DNA of 49,476 bases. Source: Falseniella ignava CCUG 37419 (GTDB lineage: Bacteria > Bacillota > Bacilli > Lactobacillales > Aerococcaceae). The DNA lies in assembly GCF_000301055.1 (NCBI RefSeq), contig NZ_JH932300.1, positions 499,407 to 548,882 on the forward strand, read 5' to 3'. Below are positions 42,924 through 49,476 of this stretch, one piece after another (the stretch's first letter is position 1; every line of letters begins with the position of its first letter). A program made the position numbers and the translations under genes. The notes under the pieces are model-generated. The model was not told where the DNA came from, did no database searches, and worked only from the letters and a program-made list of their open reading frames with translations.

Positions 42924-45900
42924 ATGTCGAAAAATCGGCACTTATTTGAATTATTATTAGATCACTTAAAGATTAATGATTCAGACTTGCTGGAAACTTT
43001 ATCTCGAACAGAATTAATAAAAGTTGAGATGTTAGTTCAGTCTCGGACTTGGCATTTTCATTTTTTAACACCGAATCAAATACCCGTCGATCAGTTTGTG
43101 TATTTTGAACAAGTGATGCGGGAATATTTCCAGCAAATGGGTTCGGTTGAAATTTGGTGGGAATACCAAGAAACGCCAACGTCTCAGTCGTTAGCAGCGT
43201 ATGCTCAAGCAATTATGCATTCTTGTGCCAGTGATTTACCGTTATTAAGAACCATGTTACACCAAAGTGCTTTAATGGTTGACCCCTCAATGATTCGCCT
43301 GGGTGTACCAAGTGCCCAATATATTCAAACTTTCCAGACGCATTACGAACCACTCTTATTAGCACGGTTTAAACAAGCGGGGCTAGCTGACTACACTTTT
43401 GAAGTCTATTTGGATGAGACGCGCTATGAACAAATGTCGCAAAAAACGATGCAACGTTTGAATGAAGAAGACGAAGCCAATCGAATTGCTGCGCTTGAAA
43501 TTGAAAAAGCACGTGAACAACAAGCGCCGCACAAAGAAGCGCCACAAGATGAAGATTTATTGATTGGGCGTGAACCTTCGAATAAGTTAGCGATTCCGCT
43601 TGTTGAATTAGATCAACCGCAAAACAACGTGGTCATTGAAGGACGTATCTTTAGTATTGACTTACGTGCACTTCGTTCGGGGTCGCACCTGTTAATGATG
43701 AATCTAACGGATTATACAAGTTCGATTACGTTGAAGATGTTCTCCAATCGACGCAATCCATTAGAAAAGTTGGAGCAGTTTAAGGAAGGAGAATGGATTC
43801 GAGCGGAAGGTGACGTGACAATTGACCGTTTCTCGAATGAATTAACCTTTGCTCCGCGCAGTATTCGTAAAATTATAAAAGCCTCGCGTCAAGATCAAGC
43901 GCCTGAAGATTGTCGTCGGATTGAGTTGCATGCCCATACGCAAATGAGTCAACTTGATGCGACCAACTCTGCCAAAGATTTAATTAAACAGGCTGCTGCT
44001 TGGGGACACAAAGCGATTGCCATCACGGATCACGGTGGGGTTCAAGCGTTCCCCGAAGCATATGCGGCAGGTAAAGACGCTGGTATTAAAGTGATTTATG
44101 GACTCGAAGCCAATATTGTGAACGATGGAGCGGAAGTGGCTTATGAGAGTGCACCGATCGAATTAGCGGAGGCTACCTATGTGGTCTTCGATATTGAAAC
44201 GACCGGACTTTCTGCTATTTATGACGATATCATTGAAATTGGGGCCGTCAAGATGCAAGGCGGGCAAGTGATTGATCGCTTTGAGACGTTTGTCAACCCT
44301 GGTTACCCGATTCCAGCGAATATTACCCAACTGACCAGTATTACCGACCATGACGTGAAGGATGCACCCATATTAGCCGACGTCTTAGGGAAGTTTCAAG
44401 CTTTTGCCGAAGGAAGCATCCTAGTCGCACACAATGCGAAATTTGATATTAACTTCATTATGAAATCCTACAAGAAAATTGGCCTTGATGCGGCACCTCA
44501 GCCAGCTATCGATACACTGGAATTATCGCGTCTCGTGAATCCGAATTTCGGTTCGCACGGGTTAGGTCAATTGGTCAAGCGCTACAATATTCACTTAGAG
44601 CACCATCACCGAGCGGTCTACGACTCGGAAGCGACAGGCTATTTGCTCTATAAATTATTGGAACAGGCTCAAGAGCAATTCCAAATGACCCAACACGATC
44701 AATTAAATAATCAGTTAGGGCAAGGGGACGCCTATAAACAAGGCCGTCCGTTCCATGCCATCCTATTGGTTAAAAACAATGCGGGCTTGAAGGACTTATT
44801 TAAGCTTGTCTCACATTCGAATGTCGATTATTTCTATCGCGTTCCACGAATTCCACGTAGTTTATTGAATCAATATCGCGAGGACTTATTAATCGGAACG
44901 GCTTGCGCTTCAGGTGAAGTTTTCACTGCCATGATGCAAGAAGGGTATGACGAAGCAAAGGAACTCGCTGAATATTACGACTATATTGAAATTCAGCCAC
45001 CGAGTGTCTATGAACCATTGGTTAAAGACGGTCTAATTCGTCATCAAGAAGATGTTTATCATATTTTAGAAAATATGATTCGATTAGGTGAAGAACTGGA
45101 CAAGCCGGTCGTAGTCACTGGAAACGTTCATTATTTGAACCCTGAAGATGCGATTTACCGTGAAGTTCTACAGGGGTCGATGAAAGCGAACTTGAACCGT
45201 GAAATCCACTTGCCGCCAGTTCATTTCCGAACGACCGATGAGATGTTAGCGGAGTTTGATTTTATTTCGGACGAGAAAGCCCAACAAATTGTGGTTGATA
45301 CGACCCATCAAATTGCGGACTTAATCGAAGAGGTGGAAGTCATCCATTCGGAACTATATCCACCAGTGATTGAGGGAGCTGACGAAGAAATTCGTGAGTT
45401 AACTTATAATAAAGCCTACGAACTCTATGGCAATCCACTGCCGGAAATTGTAGAAGCGCGGATCCAAAAAGAGCTGGATAGTATTATTAAACACGGTTTT
45501 GCGGTAATTTATTTAATCTCACAAAAATTAGTGAAGAAAAGTAATGATGACGGCTACTTAGTTGGTTCAAGGGGATCGGTTGGATCGAGTTTGGTGGCGA
45601 CTTTAACGGGAATTACCGAGGTCAATCCTTTAGCGCCGCACTACTACTGTCCATCGTGTCAATTTAGCGAGTTCTTTACCGATGGTTCTTCAGCCAAATC
45701 AGGCTATGATTTGCCGGATAAACAATGTCCAAAATGTGGCGAAAAACTATGTAAAGAAGGGCAAGATATTCCGTTTGAGACGTTCTTAGGATTTTACGGG
45801 GATAAAGTTCCCGATATCGACTTGAACTTCTCAGGGGAATATCAAAGTCAAGCCCACGCCTATACTAAAGACCTTTTCGGGGTAGATTATGTCTACCGTG

Positions 45901-47231
45901 CTGGGACCATCGGAACGGTTGCTAATAAGACCGCTCACGGCTATATTAACGGCTATTTGGAGAAGCATGCAATGTACTTGCCACAAGCAGAGCGCGAACG
46001 AATTGCGAAGGGAATTGAAGGCGTCAAGCGGACGACTGGCCAGCATCCGGGCGGGATAATTGTTATTCCACATTATAAAGATGTGTTTGACTTCACGCCG
46101 ATTCAATATCCGGCTGATGCGACCGGTTCTGAGTGGCGTACGACCCACTTTGACTTCCATTCAATTCACGACAACGTCTTAAAACTAGATATACTCGGTC
46201 ACGATGATCCGACGATGATTCGGATGTTACAGGACTTGAGCGGCATCGATCCAATCTCAATTCCAGCGGTCGATACTGAAGTGATGAAGATTTTCCAAGG
46301 AACCGAAGTGCTTGGTGTGACGCCAGAACAGATTGGTTCTGAAACAGGTACGCTCGGTATTCCAGAATTTGGGACGGCCTTTGTACGTGGGATGCTATCT
46401 GAGACACGCCCAAGTACTTTTGCCGAGTTGCTACAAATTTCTGGACTGTCTCACGGGACGGATGTTTGGTTAGGAAATGCGCAAGATTTAATCAATCAAA
46501 ATATTGTTCCGCTCTCGGAAGTCATCGGCTGTCGGGATGATATTATGGTTGTTCTGATGCAACAAGGATTGGAAGACAGTGTGGCTTTCAAGATTATGGA
46601 AAGTGTCCGGAAAGGACGCGGCCTGACCGACGAGTGGCTCGCCGAGATGCGCGCCCACAATGTGCCCGAATGGTACATTGATTCCTGCTTGAAGATCAAA
46701 TATATGTTCCCGAAAGCCCATGCGGCTGCTTACGTCTTAATGGCACTGCGAGTCGCTTACTTTAAGGTTTACTACCCGATGTACTACTACTGTGCTTACT
46801 TTAGTGTCCGGGCGAAAGACTTCGACCTCGCTGCTATGTATCAAGGCAAGGAAATGGTCAAGCAGCGGATCCAAGAAATTAACGAAAAAGGCTTCGCTGC
46901 TTCACAAAAAGAAAAAGACTTATTAACTGAGCTGGAGATTGCTAACGAGATGCTCGAGCGTGGCTACCACTTTAAGATGGTAGACTTAGACCGCTCGCAA
47001 GCACATAACTTTGTGATCGACGGAGACAGCTTGATCCCACCGTTTCGCGCTGTGCCTGGGCTAGGAGCCAACGTGGCCGAGCAAATCGTCCAAGCCCGCG
47101 AAGAAGCTCCATTCTTATCGAAAGAAGACTTGCAAAAACGCGGTAAATCCTCAAAGTCAATCATCGAATACTTAGACGCCCACCAAGTCCTCTCTCACCT
47201 ACCTGACGAAGACCAGCTTAGCCTGTTCTAA
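42924..47231 (+). CDS. polC: DNA polymerase III PolC-type alpha subunit
   Basis: The Gram-positive replicative polymerase with built-in proofreading, 1435 residues. Layout: N-terminal domain, OB fold (about 235-320), PHP domain starting at RRIELHAHTQMSQLDATNSA (about 331-350), and a DEDDh exonuclease inserted into it (about 415-585, FDIETTG with D423 and E425). The PHP remainder follows, then the polymerase core. A zinc knuckle has CPSCQF and CPKCGEKLC, and the catalytic PDIDLNF has D964 and D966. AGGAGGGG precedes the ATG. The 3' part of the gene is noticeably richer in G and C than its 5' part. Confidence 0.96.
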   Translation: MSKNRHLFELLLDHLKINDSDLLETLSRTELIKVEMLVQSRTWHFHFLTPNQIPVDQFVYFEQVMREYFQQMGSVEIWWEYQETPTSQSLAAYAQAIMHSCASDLPLLRTMLHQSALMVDPSMIRLGVPSAQYIQTFQTHYEPLLLARFKQAGLADYTFEVYLDETRYEQMSQKTMQRLNEEDEANRIAALEIEKAREQQAPHKEAPQDEDLLIGREPSNKLAIPLVELDQPQNNVVIEGRIFSIDLRALRSGSHLLMMNLTDYTSSITLKMFSNRRNPLEKLEQFKEGEWIRAEGDVTIDRFSNELTFAPRSIRKIIKASRQDQAPEDCRRIELHAHTQMSQLDATNSAKDLIKQAAAWGHKAIAITDHGGVQAFPEAYAAGKDAGIKVIYGLEANIVNDGAEVAYESAPIELAEATYVVFDIETTGLSAIYDDIIEIGAVKMQGGQVIDRFETFVNPGYPIPANITQLTSITDHDVKDAPILADVLGKFQAFAEGSILVAHNAKFDINFIMKSYKKIGLDAAPQPAIDTLELSRLVNPNFGSHGLGQLVKRYNIHLEHHHRAVYDSEATGYLLYKLLEQAQEQFQMTQHDQLNNQLGQGDAYKQGRPFHAILLVKNNAGLKDLFKLVSHSNVDYFYRVPRIPRSLLNQYREDLLIGTACASGEVFTAMMQEGYDEAKELAEYYDYIEIQPPSVYEPLVKDGLIRHQEDVYHILENMIRLGEELDKPVVVTGNVHYLNPEDAIYREVLQGSMKANLNREIHLPPVHFRTTDEMLAEFDFISDEKAQQIVVDTTHQIADLIEEVEVIHSELYPPVIEGADEEIRELTYNKAYELYGNPLPEIVEARIQKELDSIIKHGFAVIYLISQKLVKKSNDDGYLVGSRGSVGSSLVATLTGITEVNPLAPHYYCPSCQFSEFFTDGSSAKSGYDLPDKQCPKCGEKLCKEGQDIPFETFLGFYGDKVPDIDLNFSGEYQSQAHAYTKDLFGVDYVYRAGTIGTVANKTAHGYINGYLEKHAMYLPQAERERIAKGIEGVKRTTGQHPGGIIVIPHYKDVFDFTPIQYPADATGSEWRTTHFDFHSIHDNVLKLDILGHDDPTMIRMLQDLSGIDPISIPAVDTEVMKIFQGTEVLGVTPEQIGSETGTLGIPEFGTAFVRGMLSETRPSTFAELLQISGLSHGTDVWLGNAQDLINQNIVPLSEVIGCRDDIMVVLMQQGLEDSVAFKIMESVRKGRGLTDEWLAEMRAHNVPEWYIDSCLKIKYMFPKAHAAAYVLMALRVAYFKVYYPMYYYCAYFSVRAKDFDLAAMYQGKEMVKQRIQEINEKGFAASQKEKDLLTELEIANEMLERGYHFKMVDLDRSQAHNFVIDGDSLIPPFRAVPGLGANVAEQIVQAREEAPFLSKEDLQKRGKSSKSIIEYLDAHQVLSHLPDEDQLSLF

Positions 47232-47234
47232 ACC

Positions 47235-47275
47235 AAAAACTCCACTGTTTTTAAGCGAAAACAGTGGAGTTTTTG
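47235..47275 (+). terminator. Strong terminator after polC
   Basis: A near-perfect 13-bp stem, ACTCCACTGTTTT / AAAACAGTGGAGT, flanked by A and T runs. It may act in both directions, and would then also stop minus-strand transcription leaving the repeat array. Confidence 0.9.
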
Positions 47276-47319
47276 TGTGCTGCCTGGGGTGGAGGCGGCG
47301 AATTAAAAAAAGACTGTTG

Positions 47320-47864
47320 ATTGGTCTGGCACTGGGTTCGCCAAACCAAAGTAGCTTTGTGATTGGTCTGGCATCGGGTTTGCCAAACCAAAGTAGCGCG
47401 ATAATTAGTTTGGCACTGAGCTCACCAAACCAAAGTAGAGCGTTAATTGGTCTGGCAGCGAGCTCGCCAAACTAAAGTAGCTTGTTGATTGGTCCGGTAC
47501 AGAGCTCACCAAACCAAAACCACCCAATAATTGGTCTGGTACCGTGTTCACCAAACCAAAGTAGCTTGTTGATTGGTCTGGCACTGGGATCACCAAACCA
47601 AAGTGGCTTGTTGATTGGTCCGGTACTGGGCTCACCAAACCAAAGTGTGCGTTAATTGGTCTGGCTCAGCAGTTGCCAAACCAAAGAAACGCGATAATTG
47701 GTCTGGCACTGAGCTCACCAAACCAAAGTAGCTTGATGATTGGTCTGGCACTGAGCTCACCAAACCAAAGTAGCTTGGGGATTGGTCTAGCTTCGGGTGA
47801 GCTGAACCAATATCAATCAAATTTTAGTCTCGCTCCACACTCACCAAACCAACCCCACTCCAAC
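47320..47864. repeat. Tandem repeat array 1: 13 units of 42 bp
   Basis: Thirteen head-to-tail units start at 47320, 47362, 47404, 47446, 47488, 47530, 47572, 47614 (41 bp), 47655, 47697, 47739, 47781 and 47823. Each has a left arm ATTGGTCTGG, about 10 variable bases, a right arm CCAAACCAAAG and a tail of about 11 bases drawn from a few classes (GTAGCTTGnTG, GTAGCGCGATA, GTAGAGCGTTA). The arms form an imperfect palindrome. The last two units, facing the NERD gene, are degraded. Because 42 is divisible by 3, several frames stay open; these are not believed to be genes. Confidence 0.95.
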
Positions 47865-47946
47865 AAATAAACTTTTTACCCAAAAAGATAAAATAAAAAA
47901 GTATTTTGACTCCTTTCAGTGTACTTATTGTTAAGGAGGAATTTCT

Positions 47947-48882
47947 ATGCAAAAAATGAATATGTACCTGTCTCGTTTTTTTCGAGGAGAGAACACTTAC
48001 AAATTAGGAAATTTAGTCGCTGGTTATTATGGGGAGCAAGATTTTTATCGCATCGCTGAAAATTTTAAACCCCACAACTCAATTTTAGTTAAGAATTTTA
48101 TTTTTGAATTCCCGTCTTTTGTACAAATTGATGCGCTAGTAATCACCGAACGCGAAATCCATTTGTACGAAGTAAAGAATTACGACGCGCACTGTTCAAT
48201 CAATGACGGGCGAATTTTCTATGATAATAAACGACTGAATCACAACCCGTTGTTTCAAATTACTCGTGCTGTTGAGGGTTTTAAAAATATATTGCATCAA
48301 GAAAAAATTATGTTGGAAGTTAAACCACATTTAGTTTTTATGCATCCCTTTGGCAGTTTTGAAACGGACGGGACTCACGTAGTTTCGCTGATGACACGTA
48401 ACCAACTTCGGGAGCATTTTCGACAAATGGTTAATTCGCCAGGAGGAGATTCTGCATATTCGCCGAAGAGCCTTCATGAAATTTTAAAAGCGTATCAGAT
48501 TGCAGATTGGCACAGTCCTCATGATACAAATCCAGTCGACTTTAATAAGTTGAAACGTGGAGTTTACTGTCTGAATTGTGGGAGCTTTCGTGTGAAATCA
48601 ATGCAGCACACGATTAAATGTTTGCATTGTGGGCATACTATTTCGAAAAAACTGGCAATCAATTACCTAATTGCAGAATGTAGCGCGCTCTATCCGAATG
48701 AAACGCTTCGTCCACAGGATGTTTTTCGGTTTTCAGATGGACTACTCGATAGAGGTTGGATTTACAAGATTCTTGCCAAAACTTTAGAACGAGAAAAGAG
48801 AGGATATTATTTCAAATTGGAAAAGAATCCTTACACTGATCAGATGCTCGAACTTTACAGCAAATTGAAGAGTAGAAGATAA
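47947..48882 (+). CDS. NERD-domain protein with C-terminal zinc ribbon
   Basis: A 311-residue protein. The NERD (nuclease-related) domain covers about 25-165: GE at 29-30, D62 in QIDALVI, then E75-V-K77 in LYEVKNYD. This gives the E, D, ExK pattern of PD-(D/E)xK enzymes. A zinc ribbon follows with C208-x2-C211 and C225-x2-C228 (YCLNCGS, KCLHCGH). The last 80 residues are basic. It has no signal peptide or membrane segment. AAGGAGG stands before the ATG; no clear promoter is seen in the AT-rich 80 bp upstream. It is flanked on both sides by the same 42-bp repeat family. NERD proteins are often accessory or defence-linked, and the target here is unknown. Confidence 0.88.
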   Translation: MQKMNMYLSRFFRGENTYKLGNLVAGYYGEQDFYRIAENFKPHNSILVKNFIFEFPSFVQIDALVITEREIHLYEVKNYDAHCSINDGRIFYDNKRLNHNPLFQITRAVEGFKNILHQEKIMLEVKPHLVFMHPFGSFETDGTHVVSLMTRNQLREHFRQMVNSPGGDSAYSPKSLHEILKAYQIADWHSPHDTNPVDFNKLKRGVYCLNCGSFRVKSMQHTIKCLHCGHTISKKLAINYLIAECSALYPNETLRPQDVFRFSDGLLDRGWIYKILAKTLEREKRGYYFKLEKNPYTDQMLELYSKLKSRR

Positions 48883-48904
48883 AAGTAGGAAGGGGTCCAA
48901 ATAA

Positions 48905-49476
48905 AGCCAAAACCACTTGATGATTGGTATGGTTCTTGAGTTGCAAAACCAAAGGAGCTTGGTGATTAGTCTGGCAGCGAGCTCACCAAACCAAAGTTAC
49001 CCGATAATTAGTCTGGCCCCGAGCCCACCAAACCAAAGCAGCTTGATAATTGGTCTTGCTCTGGGTTCGCCAAACCAAAGCAGCTCGATGATTGGTCTGG
49101 CTCTGGGTTCACCAAACCAAAGCAGCGCGATAATTAGTCTGGCCCCGAGCTCACCAAACCAAAGTAGTGCGTTAATTGGTCTGGCCCCAGGTCCACCAAA
49201 CCAAAGCCGCTCAATAATTGGTCTGGCCCAGAGCACACCAAACCAAAGTTACCCGATAATTAGTCTGGCCCCGAGCCCACCAAACCAAAGTTACCCGATA
49301 ATTAGTCTGGCCCCGAGCTCACCAAACCAAAGTAGTGCGTTAATTGGTCTGGCCCAGAGCACACCAGACCAAAGTTACCCGATAATTAGTCTGGCCCCGG
49401 GCTCACCAAACCAAAGTAGCTTGGTGATTAGTCTGGCAGCGAACCCACCAAACCAAAGCAGCGCAATAATTAGTCT
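48905..49476. repeat. Tandem repeat array 2: 13 full 42-bp units and more, open at the window edge
   Basis: After a half-unit remnant (48905-48922), full units begin at 48923 and recur every 42 bp without exception to 49427. A fourteenth starts at 49469 and is cut by the window end. The left arm is ATTAGTCTGG or ATTGGTCTGG and the right arm CCAAACCAAAG. The tails GTTACCCGATA and GTAGTGCGTTA recur, and the units at 49133 and 49301 are identical. The first unit, next to the NERD gene, is degraded. The array begins about 20-40 bp after the NERD stop codon with no terminator between. Confidence 0.95.

Follow-up and report, generated by a model that had tools for sequence, protein, structure and literature searches.

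A predicted NERD nuclease gene recurs beside tandem repeat arrays of near-whole-turn period in Falseniella ignava and other Bacilli

Introduction

Why does a single gene for a NERD-domain protein lie between two arrays of one 42-bp palindromic repeat? This question is raised by a stretch of the genome of Falseniella ignava CCUG 37419 (assembly GCF_000301055.1, contig NZ_JH932300.1, positions 499,407-548,882, forward strand), which was analysed over its full length of 49,476 nucleotides and is called the window here. A preliminary description of the window had likened the layout to a cis system in which a nuclease-like protein is kept with a structured array. As the plain alternative, it had named one minisatellite that was split by the insertion of an accessory gene. 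We followed the protein and its repeats through this genome and others and compared array positions, periods and unit sequences. On this evidence, a functional pairing of NERD proteins with tandem arrays is highly probable.

Results

One NERD gene between two arrays of one unit

At the locus itself, the preliminary description holds. Tandem Repeats Finder (TRF), open reading frames (ORFs) and Pfam agree on two arrays of one 42-bp unit, in the same orientation, which bracket a single NERD gene. TRF called 11.2 copies at 47318-47788 and 12.6 copies at 48946-49476. A degenerate unit scan with up to 3 mismatches found 26 units in the window, 13 per side before the cut unit at its end, exactly as had been counted earlier. 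In the left array one step is 41 bp and the remaining steps are 42 bp. As also stated before, nothing else is encoded between the arrays: every frame of at least 50 aa there, other than the NERD gene, consists of repeats.

The unit common to both arrays is TTGGTCTGGC-N9-ACCAAACCAA plus a spacer of about 13 bp. Two palindromic arms of 9-10 bp surround a variable centre; by eye, the arms are kept, and the centres and spacers vary as mutated copies of one another. The palindrome pattern with up to 2 mismatches gave 57 forward matches genome-wide and 16 reverse matches, all of the latter at forward-matching places. As the same pattern read backwards gave 0 forward and 0 reverse matches, chance matches are excluded. 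No known RNA family scored above the gathering score in the window's stretch.

NERD genes and arrays across Bacilli

The window's genome (1.77 Mb) carries five NERD genes, all above the Pfam cut-off, and the other four proteins are 31-48% identical to the window's. Each of the five genes adjoins a tandem array with a period of 41 or 42, and the unit differs from paralogue to paralogue (TRF). At one of these loci (L023), the units on the two sides of the gene are also unlike each other. No replicon or partition genes were seen beside the five loci upon reading their ORFs.

With the window's protein as the single query, 24 of 60 relatives yielded homologues. Homologues were also present in 67 of 295 genomes of the window's order (E 1e-10) and in 6 of 398 genomes across the phylum (E 1e-20). 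The last six include the window's own genome and all belong to its class, to which the subfamily is confined within the phylum sample. The 46 named loci come from Alkalibacterium, Trichococcus, Desemzia, Virgibacillus, Oceanobacillus, Gracilibacillus, Bacillus and others, with one record titled Sedimentibacter. From 194 loci, 142 distinct NERD ORFs were obtained, of which 17 shorter than 240 aa were dropped, leaving 125. This counted sample consists of the retrieved loci, mostly best-scoring rows, and includes the five own-genome genes that prompted the idea.

A TRF array (period at least 30) lies within 600 bp of 83 of the 125 genes, on both sides in 13 cases, upstream only in 22 and downstream only in 48. 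Array DNA makes up 23% of the sequence at 0-300 bp from the gene, 19% of the next 300 bp, 4% at 600-1200 bp and 0.2-1.1% beyond. A lag test that is independent of TRF found a repeat in 118 of 250 near flanks versus 18 of 790 far flanks. As a hold-out, 17 NERD genes from the phylum search, outside the window's genome and order and within its class, were tested afterwards. None of their proteins exceeds 63% identity to any of the 125, and 14 of the 17 genes have a TRF array within 600 bp. Judged from these loci, most NERD genes of this subfamily in Bacilli adjoin tandem arrays. In random 20-kb stretches, arrays with a period of 40-43 or 50-53 numbered 2 in 400 kb of NERD-bearing genomes and 0 in 400 kb of genomes without a hit; such counts are too few to call NERD-free genomes array-free.

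These counts bear on the plain minisatellite, split by an accessory gene or hitch-hiking with it. Ordinary unequal exchange does occur, as the higher-order period of 126 (3 x 42) in the window's repeats (TRF) shows, and array length differs between species. This reading would need arrays to be equally common beside unrelated genes, and the near- and far-flank counts and the random stretches speak against that. It is contradicted by the loci already compared: the pairing recurs with unlike units at 83/125 and 14/17 genes, and the period tracks the protein tree (see below). We regard a plain minisatellite as highly improbable, and the earlier suggestion of one array cut in two does not fit a pairing that returns at many places with unlike unit sequences.

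The longest array met beside a NERD gene is not in the window: in genome G010, 58 units of 43 bp extend over about 2.8 kb (L207:5933-8700), with 55 steps of exactly 43 bp. The gene was also sought in mobile elements. Phages, plasmids and viral contigs gave no match with the queries used, and carriage of the gene in such elements was rejected.

Array period and unit sequence

The periods beside the 125 genes fall at 31 (1), 40-43 (22), 50-52 (57), 81-82 (4), 102-104 (5) and above 140 (9), and no period was found at 44-49 or 53-80. A quick tree was built by maximum likelihood for those 69 proteins whose array period is 38-54 bp. One change separates 16 proteins with 40-43 bp arrays from 53 with 50-52 bp arrays; some long branches meet in the 41 group, and one locus with arrays of 40 and 52 (L059) was counted as 52. 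In this tree, the array period follows the clade of the protein.

Unit likeness was judged against the 99.5% point of a shuffled null. Unit pairs lay above it in 9/9 cases at a protein identity of at least 80%, in 3/3 at 70-80%, 3/7 at 60-70%, 7/40 at 50-60% and 11/166 at 40-50%. Below about 50% protein identity, the units compared are mostly no more alike than shuffled ones, and distinct NERD proteins are seen to have distinct unit sequences. As the units are free and the period is bound to the clade, the unit sequence would turn over while its length is held by the protein's lineage.

The best helical fit was obtained at 10.35 bp. The resultant R was 0.88 for 118 near lags (null 99% point, 0.27), which are mutually dependent through shared ancestry and as multiples of one period, and 0.78 for the 19 distinct near lags (null 0.61). 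Among the hold-out genes, it reached 0.85 over 18 TRF periods (null 0.64), and the distant ones, with 13 lags (21, 31, 40-43, 61, 63, 82 and one 49), gave 0.79 (null 99% point, 0.72). For far-flank lags, it was 0.59 (null 0.62). By these fits, the periods lie near a whole number of helical turns, which favours double-stranded DNA as the form in which the repeats would act. Physically, this is read most simply as proteins lined up along a single face of the double helix, with steps of 4 turns in one form and 5 turns in the other.

Palindromy and strand signals

Palindromy was scored in 71 arrays against 60 column shuffles of the units in each, and 40 arrays exceeded every shuffle (median z 4.0). 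For part of the dispersed arrays of 51-52 bp, TRF reported half the period, 25-27 bp.

Hairpin units that adjoin a nuclease gene also call to mind type III toxin-antitoxin systems, in which the antitoxin repeat array stands upstream of the toxin gene on the same strand and its processed RNA repeats bind the toxin. Here, an array would be transcribed into hairpin RNA repeats that inhibit the nuclease. In the window, wobble-type mismatches give G-U pairs nearly all on the strand antisense to the NERD gene (17 vs 1 and 29 vs 0), which speaks for such an RNA, and a modest antisense excess persists over all 71 arrays (108 antisense versus 70 sense positions). Within arrays, however, the two kinds of wobble mix about as by chance, and a hairpin RNA from one strand was not used as an explanation. 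Moreover, the array lies upstream only in 22 of 83 cases and downstream only in 48, whole-turn periods are not expected for RNA, and many units lie in trans without the gene. A type III-like mechanism is hence given a very small chance.

Replication polarity was considered as a rule for array orientation. In the window's genome, the GC skew is positive at 12/12 places read (weakest 0.003), and the window's unit family keeps a single orientation at 4/4 places. The other two own-genome families mostly agree in orientation; the arrays at 271 and 290 kb are ambiguous, and that at 280 kb scores better reversed. The rule was rejected: the orientation in G093 is independent of GC skew, and neighbours 6 kb apart in G114 have opposite orientations.

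Arrays without the gene and their change between species

Units like those beside the NERD genes lie without the gene in other intergenic gaps of the genomes read. In the window's genome (contigs C1 and C2), the window's unit is also found at C1:313-314, 321-322 and 576 kb. The unit of the NERD gene at C1:308845 recurs at 244, 271, 300, 306 and 610 kb, and that of C1:566998 at 280 and 290 kb and at C2:607 kb. The gap at C2:606.8-607.8k (L243:2320-3317) holds three consecutive array types, namely a 42-bp type (14 copies), a 41-bp type and another 41-bp type; by eye, the units there resemble those beside two different NERD paralogues.

The same was observed elsewhere. In six genomes of one genus, which belongs to a second taxonomic family, one unit pattern gave 139 matches (6/6 genomes) and 0 control matches, with ten places in G093 alone. 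Another unit gave 113 matches in G010, at no fewer than 9 places among the matches listed; both match counts include arrays beside cognate NERD genes. We read 20 stretches in other genomes round other unit places, with known NERD loci left out. None of the 20 holds a NERD ORF, no ORF of at least 130 aa overlaps an array of the searched families, and two stretches (L262 and L264) carry several array types.

The cis proposal of the preliminary description has therefore to be divided. The recurring unit of nuclease gene and array stands (83/125; hold-out 14/17), but the system is not purely cis, since the window's unit and four other searched unit families also occur at NERD-free places. Of the observations that had been named as counting against the proposal, units widespread away from NERD genes did occur, and NERD homologues mostly without arrays did not.

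Arrays also differ between close relatives. At one junction in five congeneric species, 0, 0, 2, 4 and 6 units were counted by eye. The junction precedes a 423-aa ORF, which we take to be PurD; query-protein identity in the five species is 88-100%. Orthologous NERD genes hold the same place in five species, and their array length varies. Between the congeneric species compared, array copy number and presence are thus variable and the place of the NERD gene is fixed; therefore, arrays would come, go or change length faster than genes. Where the arrays of the variable junction are absent (two species) or present (three), a 3-bp border repeat can be discerned by eye, which is too weak to be called a target duplication or insertion footprint.

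Many dispersed intergenic arrays per genome and phased sites could also mean that the arrays are chromosome-organising or regulatory sites. The NERD protein would then coat and bridge them for the host (in segregation, insulation or transcription) and keep its nuclease motif for control or structure. Purifying selection at conserved loci would agree with this, as would the modelled C-terminal domain, which weakly resembles regulators of the MarR/PadR type and AspA, a centromere protein (see below). However, several unlike families coexist per genome (5 paralogues here, 14 in the search of relatives), and, with the window's protein as query, no homologue was found in 36 of the 60 relatives. Hence, a general need of the host is not apparent. 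A role in binding only leaves the invariant D62 and K77 unexplained, and array polarity in G093 has no fixed relation to GC skew. We rate host organising sites as unlikely.

The NERD protein

NERD domain: The window's protein matches Pfam PF08378 (NERD) at residues 25-131 with E 3.2e-12 and 47.4 bits (cut-off 22.1), and no other family was matched in the Pfam scan. D62 and K77 are invariant in 54 sequences, and E75, Q60 and N78 are kept in at least 90%. D62, E75 and K77 are probably the D...ExK active-site residues of a PD-(D/E)XK enzyme, to which we would ascribe a catalytic role.

Predicted fold: An AlphaFold2 model built from the 54 sequences has a PD-(D/E)XK core and a mean predicted local distance difference test score (pLDDT) of 92. 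In a structure comparison, 12 of 997 chains scored Z of at least 8. The best match is Cdn1 (8z4i_B; Z 10.0, root-mean-square deviation (rmsd) 3.0, 120 aligned, residues 24-166), followed by Upx, Can2, EndoMS and others and, lower, by McrC and Holliday-junction resolvases. No solved structure is convincing as a clear sequence relative (best E 0.021).

C-terminal end: The zinc ribbon CxxC...CxxC consists of C208, C211, C225 and C228, which are all invariant in the 54 sequences. Modelled alone (pLDDT 94.6), the last 113 residues fold as the zinc ribbon followed by three helices, a wing of two strands and a final helix. The best matches of this end are MarR/PadR-type regulators and AspA, at Z 6.0-6.3 (rmsd 3.2 and 81 aligned for the match at Z 6.3). 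The NERD protein is hence predicted to be a PD-(D/E)XK nuclease with a zinc ribbon and a winged-helix-like end.

Selection: In all 23 pairs of close homologues compared, some of them with a synonymous rate (dS) above 1, the ratio of nonsynonymous to synonymous rates (dN/dS) is 0.09-0.19. Such ratios show purifying selection on the gene, whose active-site motif is conserved.

A nuclease of this kind could serve as a defence or addiction module which attacks foreign or unprotected DNA, while the arrays hold the enzyme, mark self or act as decoy. NERD domains do occur in defence proteins, and our scan gave weak partial matches to PglW, HEC-02B, MkoA and MAD6. The model resembles the cyclic-oligonucleotide-activated nucleases Cdn1, Can2 and Card1, and several orthogonal paralogues per genome would suit such a role. 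Yet no PADLOC or NCBIfam defence model matched any of the five proteins scanned over its length; the best PADLOC match (E 0.00025) covers 87 of 1607 model positions. Phages, plasmids and viral contigs did not match with the queries used, and the five own-genome loci sit among ordinary-looking chromosomal genes according to our reading of the ORFs. Defence is distinctly unlikely on this balance.

The polC–rimP junction

The window ends at a run of 100 N, beyond which the same array resumes with 13.3 further copies (TRF, L021), and rimP starts about 0.2 kb past the end of the continued right array. The gap between polC and rimP is thus about 3.1 kb in the window's genome. Thirty polC loci were compared, including the window's own; rimP was seen in the flank of ten, all relatives: eight have it at 116-242 bp, and the remaining two at 1022 and 1165 bp. 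For the other 19 relatives, rimP was not seen in the flank covered. Given the 116-242 bp in eight relatives, the array–NERD–array stretch is, by this comparison, an addition at the junction relative to those eight. The features are collected in Table 1.

Table 1 Features of the added stretch and its left border (window positions)
Feature	Position	Strand	Basis
Left (upstream) array, 13 palindromic units, period 42 (one step 41)	47318..47852	+	TRF, unit scan
Ribosome-binding-site-like AAGGAGG ahead of the NERD start	47933..47939	+	By eye
NERD gene, 311 aa: NERD nuclease domain, zinc ribbon, C-terminal winged-helix-like domain (predicted)	47947..48882	+	ORF, Pfam, predicted structure, invariant residues
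Right (downstream) array, 13 full units and a cut one, orientation as left; continues to ~C1:549.55k	48916..49476	+	TRF, unit scan
Terminator-like hairpin after polC, near the left border of the added stretch; neighbour, outside the module	47236..47275		By eye
polC, left neighbour of the added stretch	42924-47231		

In another genus, a 51-bp array with a different unit lies just downstream of polC (L216:2374-2516), at about the site of the window's cassette. N runs often lie inside or at the edge of arrays (own-genome L019, L021, L022, L023, L238, L239 and L242, and the window's end). Hence, array copy counts in draft assemblies are likely too low. Two further observations concern the neighbourhood of arrays in the window's genome. 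A very long surface-protein-like repetitive ORF with a 33-bp coding repeat (L022:6532-14112; C1:568.5-576.1k) begins 0.6 kb after the NERD gene at C1:566998, lies next to a solo array of the window's unit and ends in an N run. At L019:11607-15288 (C1:317.6-321.3k), two transposase-like ORFs lie between two others that look like parts of a single metal P-type ATPase (names by our own reading of the ORFs).

Discussion

We tentatively favour, at a little under an even chance, a self-contained system in which a DNA-binding nuclease is paired with phased arrays of its own sites, turnover and spread included. The NERD protein, probably as a dimer via its winged-helix end, would bind the paired half-sites as double-stranded DNA, and neighbouring units would hold proteins on one helix face at 4- or 5-turn steps. 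Such direct binding in helical register is fairly probable. The following steps are proposed with more reserve. The PD-(D/E)XK domain might rarely cut or nick at the arrays, and repair might then expand, shrink, homogenise and sometimes copy them into other gaps. This nuclease-driven turnover and spread is possible, if doubtful. The pair might persist as a REP/RAYT-like satellite system without a transposase, selfish or partly domesticated.

Several results weigh against this proposal. As to the pairing, 42 of the 125 NERD genes have no TRF array (in the lag test, 20 of them show a repeat lag and 22 none), and 9 of the 18 far-flank lags are also of the NERD kind (40, 51, 52, 102). Unlike units stand on the two sides in 3 of 9 both-sided loci. 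As to the period, the fit for the 10 distinct lags of distant hold-out genes alone is not significant (0.77; null 99% point, 0.79), one hold-out array has a period of 49, and few independent changes underlie the helical argument (the tree of 69 has one). As to the protein, Foldseek gave no match at E of 0.001 or below, either for the whole protein (best 0.0034, Card1) or for the C-terminal end, and the winged-helix likeness of this end, with Z below 8, is only suggestive. The orthologous loci at the same place in five species speak against recent movement of the gene.

Palindromy is likewise not universal: 31 of the 71 arrays do not beat all shuffles, and several distant hold-out arrays resemble, by eye, direct half-sites about 20 bp apart. 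Because of these and the half-period arrays, phased spacing is, in the arrays compared, more general than inverted symmetry.

In its widest form, the proposal of a self-contained pair would describe bacterial satellite DNA of a class that possesses an enzyme of its own. The nuclease, a PD-(D/E)XK winged-helix protein, would assemble in register on its cognate arrays, cut-and-repair would grow, homogenise and spread them to other intergenic gaps without a transposase, and several orthogonal families would share a chromosome. We hold this form to be rather unlikely. If true, it would be a widespread undescribed partnership of enzyme and satellite in Bacilli, with one protein fold, a changing target and a spacing fixed in helical turns. 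Bacteria would thereby have a rare parallel to rapidly evolving satellite DNA and the protein that binds it. The partnership would further supply a natural set of orthogonal protein–DNA partners, with several in one genome, for deducing the rules of recognition, and it would make the growth and spread of tandem arrays tractable to study. Many intergenic repeats would gain a name and a partner, as would a subfamily known only as 'NERD domain'.

Comparison with known systems

Among the open-access PubMed Central (PMC) papers searched, none was found to describe the NERD–array pairing by its title or abstract start. NERD proteins in general (PF08378; PglW and other defence proteins) share the N-terminal NERD domain by Pfam. 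This subfamily differs by its length of about 300 aa, its combination of NERD domain, zinc ribbon and winged-helix-like end, and its phased arrays.

Type III toxin-antitoxin systems (ToxIN and relatives) likewise place a nuclease gene next to short tandem repeats whose length is similar. NERD arrays, however, stand on either or both sides, reach up to 58 units, occur also in trans and give no clear RNA signal. By array position, the pair is not a type III toxin-antitoxin system.

Iteron and centromere sites (plasmid Rep/iterons, AspA, ParB/parS) are similar in that tandem, binding-site-like repeats of near-whole-turn period adjoin a gene whose product, here predicted to be a winged-helix protein, has a unit of its own. 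NERD arrays differ in being chromosomal, with many copies and families per genome and a conserved nuclease motif. Arrays of clustered regularly interspaced short palindromic repeats (CRISPR) have conserved repeats, unrelated spacers and cas genes nearby. By eye, the centres and spacers of the window derive from one another by mutation and in this respect are unlike CRISPR spacers. In a figure legend, NERD appears as one of the putative auxiliary genes of CRISPR, where the name may stand for another NERD protein (PMC10910872).

The closest likeness in layout is to repetitive extragenic palindromic (REP) sequences and their REP-associated tyrosine transposases (RAYTs). Our results agree with it in a DNA-processing-enzyme gene flanked by palindromic repeats (both-sided arrays, 13/83; palindromy beyond shuffles, 40/71), in related repeats dispersed gene-free in intergenic gaps, in possibly several cognate pairs per genome and in mosaics of repeat classes. 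In REP/RAYT systems, which include bacterial interspersed mosaic elements (BIMEs), palindromic repeats flank the enzyme gene, related repeats are dispersed intergenically, and several cognate pairs and repeat-class mosaics occur per genome. The enzyme here is a NERD protein of predicted PD-(D/E)XK fold, whereas a RAYT is a Y1/HUH tyrosine transposase; no such transposase was met as the cognate gene, for which Pfam gave NERD only. NERD units further form long tandem arrays with a period of about 4 or 5 helical turns that follows the protein clade, and their sequence turns over almost completely between paralogues. REP repeats are reported to carry a GTAG or CGTC tag at one end (PMC3733652). Because the defining transposase is absent and the enzyme class, the long tandem arrays and the near-whole-turn period differ, the NERD–array pair is REP/RAYT-like in layout and is not placed within that group. 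In our judgement, enzyme, array geometry and co-dependence are together unlike any kind that we can name, and REP/RAYT could be counted as the broader kind to which the pair belongs.

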